Of a stretch of 64,000 nucleotides of DNA, positions 43,399 to 52,787 are shown piece after piece. A model generated the notes under the pieces. That model worked only from the letters and a program-made list of their open reading frames with translations, did no database searches and was not told the DNA's origin. Source of the stretch: Methanofollis tationis (GTDB taxonomy: Archaea; Halobacteriota; Methanomicrobia; Methanomicrobiales; Methanofollaceae); assembly GCF_013377755.1 (NCBI RefSeq), contig NZ_JABXWR010000001.1, forward strand, positions 941,104-1,005,103. The letters are read 5' to 3'. Every line of letters begins with the position of its first letter. The stretch's first letter is position 1. The position numbers were made by a program, and so were the translations under genes.

Positions 43399-44361
43399 AT
43401 GTTGCTGAATGAAACCGCAGAAAAGATCAGGAGCATGGAGATCAGGGGGGCAGGCAGGATCGCCCGGTCGGCGGTCGGCGCCCTCAGGGACCATGCGGCC
43501 GGACTGGAAACTTCCGATACCGCCTCCTTTCTCCGCTCCATGAAGGAGGCGGCCGACCTCCTCGTCGCCACCCGCCCGACGGCGGTCTCCCTCCCGAACG
43601 CCGTGCAGACCGTGATGCGTTCGCTCGAGGGGGCTAAGAGCGTCGATGAGGCGAAGGCAGCGATAAAGGCGGCCGCGGACTCGTTCATCCTCTCGTCAAA
43701 ACACGCGGTGGAGTGGATCGGCGAGATCGGCGCCCGCCATATCTCCGACGGCGACGTGATCCTCACCCATTGCAACTCCGAGGCGGCGCTGGCCTGCATC
43801 CTCACGGCCCACCGGGAGGGCAAGGCGATCGAGGTCTTCGCCACCGAGGTAAGGCCGAGAAACCAGGGGCTCCTGACGATCCGGGCCTTAAACGATGCCG
43901 GGATCCAGACGAACTTCATCGTGGACTCGGCGGTGAGGAGTTATATCAATGATGTGGACCTGGTGATCACCGGGGCGGACGCAATCACGGTGAACGGGGC
44001 GGTGGTGAACAAGATCGGCACCGCCCAGATCGCCCTCACCGCCCACGAGGCCAGGACGCCGATGGTGGTTGCCGCCGAGACCTACAAGTTCGCCCCCAGG
44101 ACGATCCTCGGGGAGCGGATCGCGATCGAGGAGCGGGAAACCGGGGAGGTGCTCGACCGGCGTATCGCCGCGGGCCTGCCGCACGTGCGGGTGAGAAACC
44201 CGGCCTTCGACGTGACCCCGGCGCGCTACGTCGACCTGATCGTGACCGAGATCGGGGCGATCCCGCCAGCGATGGCCTATATGATCATCAGGGACCATCT
44301 CGGCTGGGGAATTGGGGAGTTTCACAAGGCATTTGAGATAGACGAGAGAATACAGGAGTGA
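43399..44361 (+). CDS. ribose-1,5-bisphosphate isomerase
   Basis: This 320-residue protein is homologous to eIF2B-like isomerases and matches archaeal ribose-1,5-bisphosphate isomerase, which makes ribulose-1,5-bisphosphate for RuBisCO. The family catalytic residues are present as Cys125 in THCNSEAA and Asp194 in ITGADAI, and VNKIGTAQIAL follows. The stop is just before the RuBisCO start, so the two genes are one operon. The substrate comes from AMP phosphorylase (4566-6113). The alternative annotation as translation initiation factor eIF2B subunit is less likely in this context. Confidence 0.92.
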   Translation: MLLNETAEKIRSMEIRGAGRIARSAVGALRDHAAGLETSDTASFLRSMKEAADLLVATRPTAVSLPNAVQTVMRSLEGAKSVDEAKAAIKAAADSFILSSKHAVEWIGEIGARHISDGDVILTHCNSEAALACILTAHREGKAIEVFATEVRPRNQGLLTIRALNDAGIQTNFIVDSAVRSYINDVDLVITGADAITVNGAVVNKIGTAQIALTAHEARTPMVVAAETYKFAPRTILGERIAIEERETGEVLDRRIAAGLPHVRVRNPAFDVTPARYVDLIVTEIGAIPPAMAYMIIRDHLGWGIGEFHKAFEIDERIQE

Positions 44362-44363
44362 AC

Positions 44364-45566
44364 ATGACAAAAGACGTTGTTGCAACCTATTATTTCCGCC
44401 CGCGGTCCGACACGACCCCTGAGGCGGCGGCACTGGCGATCGCCGAGGAGGAGACGACCGGGACCTGGACCGAGATCACCACCACGACCGAGTATGTCCG
44501 CCGCCTCGACGGCGAGGTGCTCTCCCTTGAGCCCTCGGGGAACGGGTACGTTACGCGGCTTTGCTACCCGGCCGAGATCTTCGAGGCAGGAAACGTCCCG
44601 CAGTACCTCTCGGTGGTGGCGGGCAACCTCTTCGGGCTTGCCCGGCTGGATGCAGTCCGCCTCCTGGACGTGGAGTTCCCGGAGACGCTCGTCCCCTTCG
44701 CCGGACCGAAGTTCGGGATGGAGGGGATCAGGCGGCTGATCGGGACGACCGACCGGCCGCACGTCGGGACGATCATCAAGCCGAAGGTGGGCTTAAACCC
44801 GAAGGACACGGCAGAGGTCGCCTATAAAGCGGCGATCGGCGGGGTGGACCTGATCAAGGACGACGAGACCCTGACCGACCAGACCTTCTGCCCGATGGAC
44901 GAGCGCCTCCAGGCGGTGATGGCGAAACTCGACGAGGCGAAGAGCGAGACAGGGCAGGAAGTGCTGTATGCGGTGAACATCTCGGCGCGGGCCGACGATA
45001 TCGTGGAGCGGGCCGAGCACGCCATCGACCTGGGTGCGAACATGGTGATGATCGACGTGATCACCTGCGGGTTCACTGCCTTGCAGGCCCTTGCCGAGGC
45101 GCCCTCGGTGACCGTCCCGGTCCACGTCCACCGGACGATGCACGGGGCGATCACCAGGAACCCGGAGCACGGGATCGCGATGCGCCCGATCGCACGGATC
45201 GTGCGGATGCTCGGCGGCGACCAGCTCCACACCGGGACGGTTTCCGGGAAGATGAGCCACGACGTCGGCGAGTTGCGGGGGGACAACGCCGCCCTCACCG
45301 ATCCTTACCACGGACTCAAACCGACCTTCCCGGTGGCGAGCGGCGGGCTGCACCCGGGCAAGGTGGCGGCCGAACTCAAAAACCTGGGCACGAACATCGT
45401 GCTGCAGGCCGGCGGCGGGATCCACGGTCACCCTGACGGCACCGAGGCCGGCGCCCGGGCGATGCGCCAGGCGGCCGACGCCTTCATGGCCGGGGTCTCG
45501 GCGGAGGAGTACGCAAAGGACCACCGCGAGCTGGCGCGGGCCCTGGAGCGGTGGGGGAACCGCTGA
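44364..45566 (+). CDS. rbcL: ribulose-1,5-bisphosphate carboxylase, archaeal form III, large subunit
   Basis: This 400-residue RuBisCO carries GTIIKPKVGL with the catalytic lysine Lys139, the carbamylation-site segment GGVDLIKDDETL with Lys165, and the loop 6 and phosphate-binding parts (HVHRTMHGAI, QLHTGTVSGKM, VASGGLHPGKV, QAGGGIHGHPDGTEAGARAMRQA). With no small subunit nearby it is the archaeal form III that carboxylates RuBP from nucleotide breakdown to 3-phosphoglycerate. The ATG at 44364 lies two bases after the isomerase stop and behind GGAGTG. Confidence 0.93.
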   Translation: MTKDVVATYYFRPRSDTTPEAAALAIAEEETTGTWTEITTTTEYVRRLDGEVLSLEPSGNGYVTRLCYPAEIFEAGNVPQYLSVVAGNLFGLARLDAVRLLDVEFPETLVPFAGPKFGMEGIRRLIGTTDRPHVGTIIKPKVGLNPKDTAEVAYKAAIGGVDLIKDDETLTDQTFCPMDERLQAVMAKLDEAKSETGQEVLYAVNISARADDIVERAEHAIDLGANMVMIDVITCGFTALQALAEAPSVTVPVHVHRTMHGAITRNPEHGIAMRPIARIVRMLGGDQLHTGTVSGKMSHDVGELRGDNAALTDPYHGLKPTFPVASGGLHPGKVAAELKNLGTNIVLQAGGGIHGHPDGTEAGARAMRQAADAFMAGVSAEEYAKDHRELARALERWGNR

Positions 45567-48265: not shown

Positions 48266-48312
48266 GGGTTATAACCCGGCATACATGGGGGTTTTTGATG
48301 GAGTATAACCAC
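48266..48312. promoter_or_regulatory. palindrome pair, orphan copy
   Basis: GGGTTATAACCC, a perfect 12-bp palindrome, is at 48266-48277; a damaged second palindrome (GGAGTATAACCA) centres 34 bases further on. The same pair with the same 34-base spacing stands directly upstream of the DUF4143 ATPase gene at 50034-50079. Here no ATPase follows on the minus strand, so it appears to be a leftover of a duplicated promoter/operator. Confidence 0.55.
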
Positions 48313-48328
48313 GCGAACATGGGAGGGG

Positions 48329-48358
48329 CGGTTGTGAGACATCCATGTCCCACAACCG
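48329..48358. repeat. inverted repeat 1 (14-bp arms)
   Basis: CGGTTGTGAGACAT and ATGTCCCACAACCG are inverted copies with one mismatch and a 2-base spacer. Half-site core TTGTG.GACAT. Confidence 0.7.
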
Positions 48359-48360
48359 AA

Positions 48361-48396
48361 TTTGTTGGACATAAAATGCAAAATATGTCCAACAAA
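48361..48396. repeat. inverted repeat 2 (13-bp arms)
   Basis: TTTGTTGGACATA and TATGTCCAACAAA are perfect inverted copies with a 10-base spacer. It starts two bases after inverted repeat 1, and the arms share TTGT..GACAT with it. The tandem pair looks like an operator for a dimeric regulator. Confidence 0.7.
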
Positions 48397-48449: not shown

Positions 48450-48657
48450 GGAGCATTCTACCCGGTGCTCGGCATGCCTGACCGGCTCCAATGGATCGCC
48501 ACGATCAACCCGGAGTACTATGCGATCCACGTTCCTCAGGAGCCTGATCCTGCGGGGGCAGGCAAACCTCATCGGCATGGACCTGCTGGCGATCTTCATC
48601 ATCTCAGGGATCGCCATCGCTCTCGGGATCACGATGTATCGGCGGACGCTGGAGTGA
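48450..48657 (+). pseudogene. relic of an ABC-2 permease C-terminus, copy A
   Basis: One frame encodes GMPDRLQWIATINPEYYA, and after a +1 shift another continues RSLILRGQANLIGMDLLAIF..GIAIALGITMYRRTLE and a stop. This is the typical last loop and last helix of ABC-2 type permeases. The rest of the gene is absent. A shorter, diverged copy of the same tail is at 50231-50332, with the ATPase gene between. Confidence 0.6.
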
Positions 48658-48732
48658 GGAGAGGACCGGTTGTCGAGGTGGTGCAGAGAGAGCGGCGGAA
48701 CGTGTACTGACACTGTTCGTTAAACGCCGATC

Positions 48733-50022
48733 TCACACCACCCCGAGGAGCCACCGCCAGAGCGGGACGCACCTGATCTCCCCATCCATTCGCACCGTAT
48801 CCTTCGTGATCAGCACCAGATCCCTCACCCGGCCGTCGAACTCAGCGGCGAACTCCCGGAGGGCGTTCATCTCCCGTTCGGGAGGAGTGTCGGTGTAGGT
48901 GACGTTGATCGCGGTCAGGGTGTTGTCCGGGTTTTTCAGGACGAAGTCCACCTCGCCCCCTTTTTTCCAGTAATAGGGATCGCCCCCCCGCCGCCGCAGT
49001 TCGAGAAATACCAGGTTCTCAACACAACGCCCTTCGTCGGCAGAGAACGTGAACGAAACGGCATTTCTCAGCCCGGTGTCGATGCAGTAGACTTTTTTGT
49101 TGTTCCTCGCCTGCACCTTCAGGGAGTAACTGAAATACTGGACCTCGAAGAGCACCCGTGCCATCTCGGCATAACAGACGTACTCCCTGATCGTCGCCGC
49201 CTCGATTCCCAGCACCTCTACCAGCTGTCGGTAGGAGTAGGGCAAGGCGATGTTGGTCAGGAGGTAGGAGAGGAGATCGGCAAGCGCCCGCTGGTTGCGC
49301 ACTTTGTTCACCTGGACGATATCGCGATAGACGATGCTGTCGTAATACGCCCTGAGCTGATCCGCCTTCACGCCCCCGTCCTCCTGCCGCACCGCCTGCG
49401 GAAACCCACCTTCCCGGATGTATTGCCCGAGCAGGTTCAAAATGTCGTATTTTCTGGCGGCGAGGGCGACCGGGTCGAGCTCGACCTCCATCCCGCGAAA
49501 GAGGAGATACTCTGAGAAGTCAAGGGGATAGACCGGCACCGCAAGGTACCTTCCGCTGATCAGGGTCGAGACCTCCGAATCGAGGAGATAGGAGGAAGAC
49601 CCCGAGATCACCAGCCTGAACCGCTTGCGATCATAGGTCGCCTTGAGCCAGCGCTCCCAGCCCGGGATCGCCTGGATCTCGTCGAAAACGAGCCAGGCCC
49701 CCTCTCCGCTCCAGATGTTCGAACGATAGGTGTCGAGCACCGCCTCCAGCGGCCGATCAAGGTTGGCCAGGGCGGGCTCGTCGCAGTTGACGAAGAGGAT
49801 CGATCGCGGGTCGACACCCTGTTCATCGATCAGGTCGCGGATCATCTGGTACAGCAGGGTGGTTTTGCCCGAACGCCGGACGCCGCTGAGGACTACGATC
49901 TCCCCGGTGGTGCAGTATCTTTTGATCTTCGAGAGGTAGCGGTCCCGCCGGACGCCGGTGTCGAAGTCTCTGCCGCTCCACCAGGGGTTGAGGGCGACCA
50001 GAAGGTCGAGGAGATCGGCCAT
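48733..50022 (-). CDS. AAA-type ATPase with DUF4143 C-terminal domain
   Basis: This 429-residue protein has an N-terminal AAA module with P-loop GVRRSGKTT (residues 47-55), Walker B GAWLVFDEIQAIPGW, and the sensor segment RLVISGSSSYLLDSEVSTLISGRY. A DUF4143 domain with winged-helix and nuclease-like end follows (NLVFLELRRRGGDPYYWKKGGEVDFVLK, reminiscent of the restriction-endonuclease-like fold). Families of this type are abundant in methanogens and behave like mobile or selfish genes; their function is not established. Two palindromes sit 12 and 46 bases before the ATG. Confidence 0.85.
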   Translation of the reverse strand: MADLLDLLVALNPWWSGRDFDTGVRRDRYLSKIKRYCTTGEIVVLSGVRRSGKTTLLYQMIRDLIDEQGVDPRSILFVNCDEPALANLDRPLEAVLDTYRSNIWSGEGAWLVFDEIQAIPGWERWLKATYDRKRFRLVISGSSSYLLDSEVSTLISGRYLAVPVYPLDFSEYLLFRGMEVELDPVALAARKYDILNLLGQYIREGGFPQAVRQEDGGVKADQLRAYYDSIVYRDIVQVNKVRNQRALADLLSYLLTNIALPYSYRQLVEVLGIEAATIREYVCYAEMARVLFEVQYFSYSLKVQARNNKKVYCIDTGLRNAVSFTFSADEGRCVENLVFLELRRRGGDPYYWKKGGEVDFVLKNPDNTLTAINVTYTDTPPEREMNALREFAAEFDGRVRDLVLITKDTVRMDGEIRCVPLWRWLLGVV

Positions 50023-50033
50023 GCGATTCTGGT

Positions 50034-50079
50034 GGGTTATAACCCTGCATAAAGGTATGTTTTTAAGTGGTTATAACCA
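50034..50079 (-). promoter_or_regulatory. palindromic operator pair and TATA box of the ATPase gene
   Basis: GGGTTATAACCC (50034-50045) and TGGTTATAACCA (50068-50079) are two perfect 12-bp palindromes with centres 34 bases apart. A minus-strand CTTAAAAAC between them is a likely TATA box. The proximal palindrome would cover the transcription start, a good place for repression or autoregulation. Confidence 0.6.
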
Positions 50080-50230
50080 TGCGAAAATTACCCTGACATT
50101 ACACTGGAAGAGTCTGAAGATAACGATCCCGGTTCGCTGGGGTCGATAGTGGCGTCGGATGCCGCCTGTGACCTGCCAGTCGAGAGGAGAATCGAACATG
50201 ATCAGGTGTGGGGATAGATATTGAGTTAAG

Positions 50231-50332
50231 GGGCAGGTACACCTCATCGGCATGGATCTGCCGGCGATCTTCATCTTCTCCGGGATCGCCATCGCCCTCG
50301 AGATCACGACGTATCGGCGGACGCTGGAGTGA
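50231..50332 (+). pseudogene. relic of an ABC-2 permease C-terminus, copy B
   Basis: The frame encodes GQVHLIGMDLPAIF..GIAIALEITTYRRTLE and a stop, clearly the same tail as copy A at 48450-48657 with substitutions. No upstream permease sequence remains. Confidence 0.6.
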
Positions 50333-50487
50333 GGGAAGTATGGCCGGTGAAGAGATGCCGCCGATGACAGTTGTCCTGATGTTCACCATTATCGACCGTT
50401 TTCGACAGGTTTTCACCACCTGCCGAAAGAAGGCGAGGATAGAGGAATAATGGCGGATCGGAAATTACGCATAGATATAATGATCAA
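50333..50487. other. intergenic remnant left of the IS5 element
   Basis: No gene seen. Before IS5 insertion this stretch was continuous with 52889-53199. Confidence 0.5.
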
Positions 50488-50553: not shown

Positions 50554-51504
50554 TCACTTCACCATTGTAAGCAGCATATTGTAGCAGTTCATTTTCATCT
50601 TCACCTCCCGGATCATTCCCTCCTTCGAAGTCGCCCTCACCGTTTCGCCGAATATTCGTTTTCCACTGGAAAACACTCCTTCAGCCTTCCATCTCATCCC
50701 ATAGTCGATATCCTGTGCCCACTCTCTATATCCCCCCAATCGTACTCGCTCCCGTACGCATTCGGCGCGATAGGGCGATCCGGTGGATCTGGTCGCTGCA
50801 TCTGTTCGCGTCTTGATTCCCGATAGGATCCCGCGTTTTTCGAGCGTATTGAAGATCTCGTTCCGGTCATAGGCCCCATCTGCAAGAAGACGGCGTATGG
50901 TATGCTCCCTGCCACAGTGCTGCTGGACCTGATCCAGGAGGGGAATACACCGTGCATCATCCTGAACCGATTCGTCGGTGACCTCTAGACCAAGGATCTG
51001 ATTGGTTTCGATGTCGATCATCGCATGGACCTTGATCCATCCGCGCCGGACCCTCCACTTCTCCCGCATCCATTCCCCGCGGTTGGTGACTTTGATCCCG
51101 GTGCTATCGACAGCAATGATGACATTGCGTGAGAGGATCGTTGGATCAACCCGAAGGGAGATATCAAGACGCTTGATCCGGCGGAAAAGGGTTGTATAAT
51201 CTGCTGAAACAAGGGAAGGAATAAAGATAGAGAGTTTCCGGGTAAAACCCTCCATCTGGCGATAGGGCATCTGCAGGAAGACGTGAATGAAAGCCATCCA
51301 GGTGATGAAGGGTTCGGGATAGTGAAAAGGACGACCGGGCTTGCCGGTGTTCATCCGGGAAACGAGATCAGTCCAGTGGTCGATGAAATCAAGGGAGAGG
51401 TAGAATTCGCCGCGGCGAACCAGACGTTCATTATATATACTCCAATCACGAGTGTCGGTGTACGGACGGCCCCAGTACTTCTCTAATTCCTTCCTCCCTC
51501 TCAT
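50554..51504 (-). CDS. IS5-family transposase, N-terminus replaced by ISH3 end
   Basis: The DDE transposase has IIAVDSTGIKV (first Asp), RRLLADGAYDRNEIFNTL (second Asp) and AEGVFSSGKRIFGE (Glu region). The original start is on the other side of the ISH3 insert: rejoining the sequence at the GGCCC duplication gives MPKNKRWGRPYTDTRDW. The present frame instead begins at an ATG inside the ISH3 end (MRGRKELEKYWGRPYT) and stays in register, so an almost full-length protein of 316 residues could still be made. Whether it is expressed is unknown. Confidence 0.85.
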   Translation of the reverse strand: MRGRKELEKYWGRPYTDTRDWSIYNERLVRRGEFYLSLDFIDHWTDLVSRMNTGKPGRPFHYPEPFITWMAFIHVFLQMPYRQMEGFTRKLSIFIPSLVSADYTTLFRRIKRLDISLRVDPTILSRNVIIAVDSTGIKVTNRGEWMREKWRVRRGWIKVHAMIDIETNQILGLEVTDESVQDDARCIPLLDQVQQHCGREHTIRRLLADGAYDRNEIFNTLEKRGILSGIKTRTDAATRSTGSPYRAECVRERVRLGGYREWAQDIDYGMRWKAEGVFSSGKRIFGETVRATSKEGMIREVKMKMNCYNMLLTMVK

Positions 51505-52787
51505 TTCATTCAACGGCGTTTCTCGCTCCCTTTCCTAAACAGGATACCTTAACACAGGAATGGCTCTGGCACCCCTCATCGATGTGCGGATCGCCTCCCA
51601 GATTATGCACATGAAGGAGCTGAACCGGAAGCCGCGCACCTCAATGGTTTGTGGTCCCTGTTTCGCGGGGGAAAAGTGCTTCCAGAGTATATCGATCCAG
51701 ATATTCTTGAGGAGGAACGATATTATGGCGTAGAGATACCGGATGACCGGGTTTTTTGTGCTCGTACGGGGTTTCACCTGGTTGCGCATCCGATAGGACG
51801 ATTCAATCGAGAACCTGGACCGATAGGTCTGATGGACCCGATGGGGATTCCACCGGAGGTTTCCCACGACGTAACCCAGATTCTCAACGCCGCGCTTACC
51901 CCGTTTTCCTTTTGCATACTTCACGGCAATCGCAATCTTCAGGACCAGCACCGGTTTTCCGTGCATCCGATATTCAGCATACCGGGAGTGTGTTCCCTGG
52001 AGGACTTGTTTCATCCTTTTCCCGTGTTTCCTGACAGGAACGATGAACGGCACCTGGACGTCCATCAGAAACCCGAGCACCTTCCGGGTGTAGAACTCCC
52101 GATCCAGGCAGAGAACTTCGATGCGAAGACCGAGTTCAGTGATCCGATCGAGACATTGCGCGATGTATCCGACCTTCGAGGTATCCCGGCGCACCGGGAA
52201 CACGGCCAGCGTCATCTGCCGGTTCCTGGTGGTCACATACAGAGTGATGTAGGAATAAAACTCATTTGTTGACTTTTTACGCTTACTTCGCACGATATAG
52301 GCCTCATTCTCCTCATCGGTTGACCCGTAGTACGGATCGTTGGTAAAGTCAATCGCAAACTGATAGGCGTACCCAGGTTTGAGGACGTGGTGCATATGGG
52401 TGGTGAGGATCGAGGTGTTATTCTGTTCCAAATCGGCCATATCGAGTTTTTTGAGGTGGTAGCGAACGGACGTTTCGCACGGTACCCGATCCAGGATGTG
52501 GGTGATTGAGTGAACTGACTGATTCATTACAGCCATGCCGACCAGAGAAGAAATCAAGTCCGTTTGAGTGAGTTTTCCCTGAATGGGAATGGTTAGATGC
52601 TGATCCAGTGCCGAAACAACAGGGGCGCAACAGTCTTTAGGTTTCAGAATGTTGCTCTTTCTGCAGGTCACCCTCGATTTAGGTAAAGGCATGAGGGGAA
52701 GCCTGCAATCTATATAGATCTTTCGATTTTGGGCGGGCTTCGGGCGGTAGAGGGGGATTTGGGGTCTCTAAAATTAGCGAAGTACTG
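51473..52787 (-). mobile_element. ISH3-family insertion sequence nested in the IS5 element
   Basis: The 1315-bp element has terminal inverted repeats CAGTACTTCTCTAATT (51473-51488) and, on the other strand, CAGTACTTCGCTAATT (52772-52787), 15 of 16 identical. It is flanked by the 5-bp direct repeat GGCCC (51468-51472 and 52788-52792). It encodes one intact transposase and lies within the eighth codon or so of the IS5 transposase gene. Confidence 0.92.
51535..52692 (-). CDS. ISH3-family transposase
   Basis: This 385-residue intact DDE transposase matches the archaeal ISH3 family. Catalytic positions are FAIDFTNDPYYG (Asp), IEVLCLDREFYTRKV (Asp) and RFSIESSYRMRNQVKPRTSTKNP (Glu, with the YREK-like Arg/Lys). 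A TATA-like TCTATATAGATT lies about 20-30 bases before the ATG, inside the element. It appears functional by length and motifs. Confidence 0.93.
   Translation of the reverse strand: MPLPKSRVTCRKSNILKPKDCCAPVVSALDQHLTIPIQGKLTQTDLISSLVGMAVMNQSVHSITHILDRVPCETSVRYHLKKLDMADLEQNNTSILTTHMHHVLKPGYAYQFAIDFTNDPYYGSTDEENEAYIVRSKRKKSTNEFYSYITLYVTTRNRQMTLAVFPVRRDTSKVGYIAQCLDRITELGLRIEVLCLDREFYTRKVLGFLMDVQVPFIVPVRKHGKRMKQVLQGTHSRYAEYRMHGKPVLVLKIAIAVKYAKGKRGKRGVENLGYVVGNLRWNPHRVHQTYRSRFSIESSYRMRNQVKPRTSTKNPVIRYLYAIISFLLKNIWIDILWKHFSPAKQGPQTIEVRGFRFSSFMCIIWEAIRTSMRGARAIPVLRYPV

Follow-up and report, generated by a model that had tools for sequence, protein, structure and literature searches.

Phased palindrome pairs at the start of PDC-S01 ATPase genes: a candidate autoregulatory operator in Methanofollis tationis and its relatives

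The palindrome pair and its orphan copy

The window analysed here is the whole stretch of 64,000 nucleotides from contig NZ_JABXWR010000001.1 of Methanofollis tationis (positions 941,104 to 1,005,103), in which a gene encoding an ATPase of the AAA_14-DUF4143 type is preceded by a pair of short palindromes and lies close to a damaged copy of the same pair. The features of the locus are as follows, with positions counted within the window and the strand given where one applies.

48266-48277: intact palindrome GGGTTATAACCC of the orphan (relic) pair; the same pair is found in sister genome G005
48300-48311: damaged palindrome GGAGTATAACCA of the orphan pair, in the same 34-bp register
48330-48357: further palindrome GGTTGTGAGACATCCATGTCCCACAACC beside the orphan pair, a possible operator scar
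48362-48395: further palindrome TTGTTGGACATA...TATGTCCAACAA, matching in its outer arms the operator of a different clade of ATPases (L006, L022, L303)
48555-48659, plus strand: 3' remnant, 91% identical over 105 bp to 50230-50334
48733-50022, minus strand: AAA_14-DUF4143 ATPase of 429 amino acids, PADLOC PDC-S01 family, with a predicted winged helix at residues 244-294
50034-50045: proximal palindrome GGGTTATAACCC, proposed operator between promoter and start
50046-50067, minus strand: AT-rich spacer CTTAAAAACATACCTTTATGCA, conserved among orthologues
50068-50079: distal palindrome TGGTTATAACCA, proposed second operator, 34 bp from the first, centre to centre
50230-50334, plus strand: second remnant copy, adjoining the live pair

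The two perfect 12-bp palindromes which a sequence-only reading had placed upstream of the ATPase are indeed present, among 26 perfect palindromes of at least 12 bp in the window, and the half-damaged second pair that it had described, with identical spacing and no gene, was found at 48266-48311. The ATPase starts with an ATG at 50022 on the minus strand, leaving 11 nt between the ATG and the end of the proximal palindrome, and the spacer between the palindromes is taken by us, from inspection by eye, to be an archaeal BRE/TATA element. The half-damaged pair (48267-48310) carries 2 mismatches in 20 positions and keeps the 34 bp between centres of the live pair; downstream of it there is an ATG with a few similar codons, but no ATPase. 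Allowing up to one mismatch, GGTTATAACC occurs three times in the window (48267, 50035 and 50069) against 0.34 expected, a count reached by none of 100 shuffles. Exact copies in the 2.25-Mb genome number five, comprising three in the window and two isolated ones, with none for the backward control. A genome-wide regulon defined by GGTTATAACC was rejected, as the only copies outside the window are the two isolated ones.

The 3' remnant, which from reading alone we presume to derive from an ABC-2 permease, adjoins the operator pair in sister genome G003 as well. The match between the outer arms of the palindrome at 48362-48395 and the operator of another clade suggests that the gap may hold the scars of several lost ATPases. 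Two DDE transposase ORFs (50554-51513 and 51535-52692, both on the minus strand) adjoin the ATPase locus, and ORFs at 43399-45566 resemble what we take to be a ribose-1,5-bisphosphate isomerase and a RuBisCO large subunit.

Retention and decay of the pair in sister genomes

Close orthologues of the ATPase turned up in G005 (89% identity), G009 (84%) and G001 (80%) when 12 genomes of the family were searched at the protein level; G010 has an ORF cut short where its contig ends, G011 a broken ORF and G002 a fragment. The pair has stayed in the same place, at the same 34 bp, in the orthologues L010, L011 and L012 and in the truncated L013, with upstream flanks that diverge, and the broken L014 of G011 retains it with 3 mismatches in 20 positions. 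Across the order, the pattern GGTTATAACC-N24-GGTTATAACC, with up to three mismatches, was detected in 13 of 70 genomes, compared with 1 of 70 when read backwards; at some loci (G016, G021 and G041) three palindromes stand in the 34-bp register, and weak matches to the pattern also occur in G003:C2 and G054.

The sister genomes also bear on the fate of the orphan pair. In G005 a second pair lies downstream of the ATPase, as it does in the window, and we read these 3' copies as what is left of a duplicated locus. G003 has an isolated perfect pair beside the remnant that flanks both window copies; in G002 a perfect pair is followed by roughly 20 codons from the start of the ATPase gene and then by its final codons, the product of an internal deletion; and in G006 a decayed pair adjoins a flavodoxin-like gene (named by eye), the neighbour of the ATPase in G009. 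As pairs are thus seen retained, alone, with the gene ends, or decayed, the orphan pair at 48266-48311 is most simply explained as the scar of a duplicated ATPase locus whose gene was lost.

The context of the ATPase cassette differs between sister genomes and orphan pairs persist where the gene has gone, both of which would be expected if the palindromes were the ends or targets of a mobile ATPase cassette, or sites recognised by its nuclease-like domain, and the accessible part of one source does place a PD-(D/E)XK-like domain in this protein family (PMC12988326). However, no second, matching pair, such as the terminal repeats of an insertion sequence or MITE, was found in the approximately 1.3-1.5 kb 3' of L011 and L012, two orthologue loci which lack the relic; the scar in G002 retains both ends of the ORF, pointing to internal deletion rather than excision; and the active-site E-x-K is replaced in the window clade, as read from an alignment. 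This explanation is therefore considered decidedly unlikely, and the sites are treated below as candidate operators.

Palindrome pairs across the ATPase family

Two other DUF4143 ATPases complete the set of this genome and have palindromes of their own: L008 carries TGTCGATTATAATCGACA and a near copy 32 bp apart, and L006 carries GGACATATTGTAAAT-N3-ATTTACAATATGTCC over its start. A wider survey was based on ATPases from 60 genomes of the order, at least 80 loci from a public-genome scan and 10 loci from viral contigs, with upstream regions located by a Walker-motif regular expression instead of mapped starts. Two of 110 ORFs from the order (one cut at a contig end, one with the Walker motif at residue 234) and 3 of 90 public and viral loci were left out. 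A best single palindrome scoring at least 8 was found for 41 of 108 ATPases of the order (1.2% of shuffles), for 32 of the 77 among the public loci listed (2.3% of shuffles) and for 6 of 10 viral loci; the upstream regions of other genes at the same loci gave 17 of 221, a control in which 4 of the 221 regions are antisense frames over the ATPase operator itself.

Pairs were scored as two similar palindromes 18-60 bp apart, with the threshold (8.7) set at the 98th percentile of shuffles, and the 195 ATPases, their public part drawn from the at least 80 loci, were reduced to 91 representatives at 60% identity. The pair score reached the threshold in 52 of the 91, with spacings of 32 bp (14), 33 bp (20), 34 bp (1) and 21-23 bp (8), the others being scattered; no peak appeared in the shuffles. 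Other genes at the same loci passed in 25 of 311 cases, and at 32-34 bp the 35 of 91 ATPases compare with 4 of 311 other genes (Fisher p 2.7e-21). A second set drew on 45 genomes of the phylum, on 29 that were reached through loci and on 80 retrieved stretches. It comprised 131 ORFs; removal of 5 with short flanks and of duplicates left 125, which were clustered to 105 representatives with less than 60% identity to the first set. Here 26 of 105 passed the pair threshold (15 of 630 shuffles), at 22-23 bp (8), 31-34 bp (15) or other spacings (3), so that 23 of the 26 fall in the two ranges, and single palindromes scoring at least 8 were found for 34 of 105 (18 of 1050 shuffles). A pair above threshold was absent from 39 of 91 representatives in the first set and 79 of 105 in the second, counts in which members with a long N-terminal extension (L084, L131 and L132), whose pair lies beyond the scanned stretch, are scored as misses. 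In the sister family ATPase_2 (PF01637), with 2 of 30 left out, 3 of 28 were over the threshold, at 21, 21 and 30 bp; the ATPase_2 genes L257, L264, L265, L267 and L269 carry palindrome pairs at 21 or 30 bp with scores of 8.5-13.9.

The spacings thus concentrate near two or three helical turns, with sequences that differ. The centre of the second site lies a median of 17 nt upstream of the first in-frame start codon, and the spacer has an AT fraction of 0.81 compared with 0.58 in the upstream flank (77 family pairs). The original proposal, made from a single gene, was of a protein bound to one face of the DNA across about three turns, with a lack of enrichment of the motif upstream of related ATPases named in advance as its refutation. 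It withstood this test: the pair is present in the sister orthologues and phased pairs are strongly enriched across the ATPase family, which together support both a bound protein and its link to the ATPase; strict same-face geometry fares less well, as 34 bp, at 10.5 bp per turn, makes 3.24 turns and so overshoots three, and most relatives use 32-33 bp. Behind the one gene of that proposal stands an arrangement of the whole family, in which each lineage has its own palindrome.

The same spacings bear upon whether the palindromes work instead as hairpins in a leader RNA. As RNA the sites can pair with each other (live region z -2.48, relic z -4.18), but any two copies of a palindrome can do so, and the clusters at 22-23 and 31-34 bp are explained by DNA phasing and not by RNA pairing. 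Moreover, the distal site would be untranscribed, because the proposed promoter lies between the palindromes. We give this explanation hardly any credence and return to sites that act as DNA.

The palindromes differ among the paralogues of one genome and follow the lineage of the ATPase more than that of the host. Operator similarity was 0.575 for proteins of at least 60% identity in different genomes (133 pairs), compared with 0.405 for paralogues of the same genome below 60% identity (34 pairs) and 0.367 for unrelated proteins (1210 pairs). The operator of one clade, of the TGGACA type, hardly differs between methanogens (L022, L036) and a Desulfobacula genome (L303), which argues for joint transfer of the gene and its operator; at L303 the palindrome upstream of the ATPase, TGGACATATTGT...ACAATATGTCCA, is close to that of the methanogens. 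The expansion of paralogues can be extreme, with 76 DUF4143 matches in G136 (a MAG, the genome of L196) and 34 in G118 (the genome of L191).

The ATPase, a proposed self-controlled switch and known systems

The window protein matches PF13173 (AAA_14, 118.3 bits) followed by PF13635 (DUF4143, 93.9 bits), both above the curated cut-offs, and the PADLOC PDC-S01 profile over its full length (366.8 bits, residues 22-426 of 429, profile positions 9-407 of 412). A sequence search of the PDB with the ATPase returned no matching chain. An AF2 model from 42 sequences (pLDDT 93.3, pTM 0.91) has an AAA domain, a winged helix (244-294, with predicted elements H244-256, H264-271, H275-287 and E291-294) and a C-terminal domain, as named from secondary structure and Pfam ranges. 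Winged-helix domains are also present in STAND proteins that do not bind DNA. Foldseek placed 2qen and the DNA-bound Orc1 2v1u, ranked second, at the top of its matches; the best VIA match was SSO1545 (2fna, Z 17.2, rmsd 4.5, 269 residues aligned), followed by 2qen, plant NLRs and CED-4. The STAND fold match spans residues 9-329, with Z of 15-17 in the best rows. The active-site motif of PD-(D/E)XK domains is D...E-x-K. In an alignment read by us the E-x-K is absent from the window ATPase (EVDFV...AINVTYTD), N and T standing at the E and K positions, which makes catalysis by this protein doubtful; in the L008 clade these positions are Q and T, and the translation of L006 reads EIK.

The presence of DNA-bound Orc1/Cdc6 structures (2v1u, 2qby) among the best Foldseek matches, and the AT-rich DNA between the sites, would also suit a loading or replication site for an Orc1/Cdc6-like AAA protein rather than a transcription operator. 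The sites, however, lie at the start codon of a single gene and in up to 76 copies per genome (G136), unlike replication origins, and such a role is very improbable.

Whether the operators and the protein vary together was addressed with several statistics. A partial Mantel scan (24 columns) peaked at residues 264-305 and 318-353, with a best family-wise p of 0.107 (residues 324-347) in the permutation test. Column-wise mutual information favoured the recognition helix solely at half-site position 4 (p 0.006-0.007, uncorrected). Among 9-residue windows in the high-confidence data, the recognition helix ranked 2 of 394, without family-wise significance, and as a pre-set window it gave family-wise p values of 0.72-0.91 (positions 4-7 and 4-6) and 1.0 (core). 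In the merged set of 76 it did not come near the top (family-wise p at least 0.91), the best windows being 324-343 (0.03), 230-249 (0.02) and 98-118 (0.07). Residues 324-343, the best window for half-site positions 1-7, form the first helix of the nuclease-like domain and not the winged helix. The outcome was weak or negative throughout for the winged helix, which lacks family-wise significance, and we refrain from naming it as the part that reads the site.

This result gives some room to a separate host transcription factor that would bind the sites and regulate the ATPase in trans, since direct binding by the ATPase is our inference. Such a factor would have to accommodate the different palindromes of paralogues within one genome, the sharing of palindromes by related ATPases across genomes, and a layout which spans bacteria, archaea and viral contigs; PDC-S01 is, moreover, a single-gene system in the accessible part of its description (PMC12988326). 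Control in trans is considered unlikely.

We regard it as probable that the palindromes form an operator pair through which the solitary PDC-S01 ATPase represses its own promoter. The operators would flank the promoter; the ATPase, with its predicted AAA, winged-helix and PD-(D/E)XK-like parts, would bind the two sites as dimers that cooperate across about three helical turns and so hold its own transcription low, until released by a foreign trigger or by a switch in its nucleotide state. With a palindrome of its own for each ATPase lineage, many paralogues could coexist in one genome without cross-regulation, and the orphan pair at 48266-48311 would be what a second copy left behind after losing its gene. 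A broader and more speculative extension, which we offer as a tentative possibility, is that PDC-S01 is a one-protein immune switch in which the ATPase would be sensor, repressor and effector, an infection-driven change of ATP state would free it and open the promoter, operator diversification would insulate dozens of paralogues, and scars would record lost systems.

The conserved promoter layout offers a direct handle on this family, since the operator indicates the probable binding target of the ATPase, supplies a reporter for a search for the trigger, and provides a sequence signature by which copies can be recognised as live, silent or lost. The layout would likewise account for the carriage of so many paralogues (76 matches in one MAG) without cross-talk. 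PDC-S01 is a very common candidate virus-defence gene, and the frequent occurrence, in its bacterial and archaeal relatives, of sites with this layout but another sequence is what one would predict if such genes used them as switches for their own control.

In the accessible part of its description, PDC-S01 (an AAA ATPase fused to a PD-(D/E)XK-type domain) is a single-gene system and the fourth most common defence across prokaryotes, and most PDCs still await experimental validation (PMC12988326). The window protein and 10 tested relatives from other clades and bacteria match its profiles, with the difference that the window clade is without the E-x-K of the nuclease motif. No description of regulatory sites of PDC-S01 was found in the accessible parts of PMC12988326 and PMC13356809, nor of paired sites in the papers found on DUF4143, PDC-S01, COG1373 and SSO1545 proteins, covered for COG1373 by a listing of titles. 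For a Thermus DUF4143 ATPase gene, TT_P0211, the accessible part of PMC4406477 lists a value of 6.6 where it deals with the effect of plasmid DNA on gene expression. IniR, a mycobacterial AAA ATPase transcription factor, has an AAA domain predicted to be similar to SSO1545, also the best VIA match of the window model, but it reportedly activates iniBAC and has a MalT-like domain as well as a separate DNA-binding domain at its C-terminus (PMC5760070, accessible part). STAND ATPases (SSO1545, CED-4, Apaf-1, plant NLRs and Avs) match the predicted fold of residues 9-329, but no repeat sensor domain is seen in the window protein. Archaeal Orc1/Cdc6 shares the AAA and winged-helix fold (Foldseek rank 2) and differs in binding origins; we know of no archaeal Orc1/Cdc6 with a PD-(D/E)XK-like domain. 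In the AbiE type IV toxin-antitoxin system, AbiEi reportedly binds inverted repeats and negatively autoregulates its own operon. It resembles the window locus, a candidate for defence, in the inverted repeats at the promoter and in the negative autoregulation that we propose here, whereas AbiE has two genes and a dedicated antitoxin and the window ATPase would be repressor and effector in one. Autoregulated defence loci are thus already known, as AbiE illustrates, and it is the paired sites at PDC-S01 ATPases which appear to be new.
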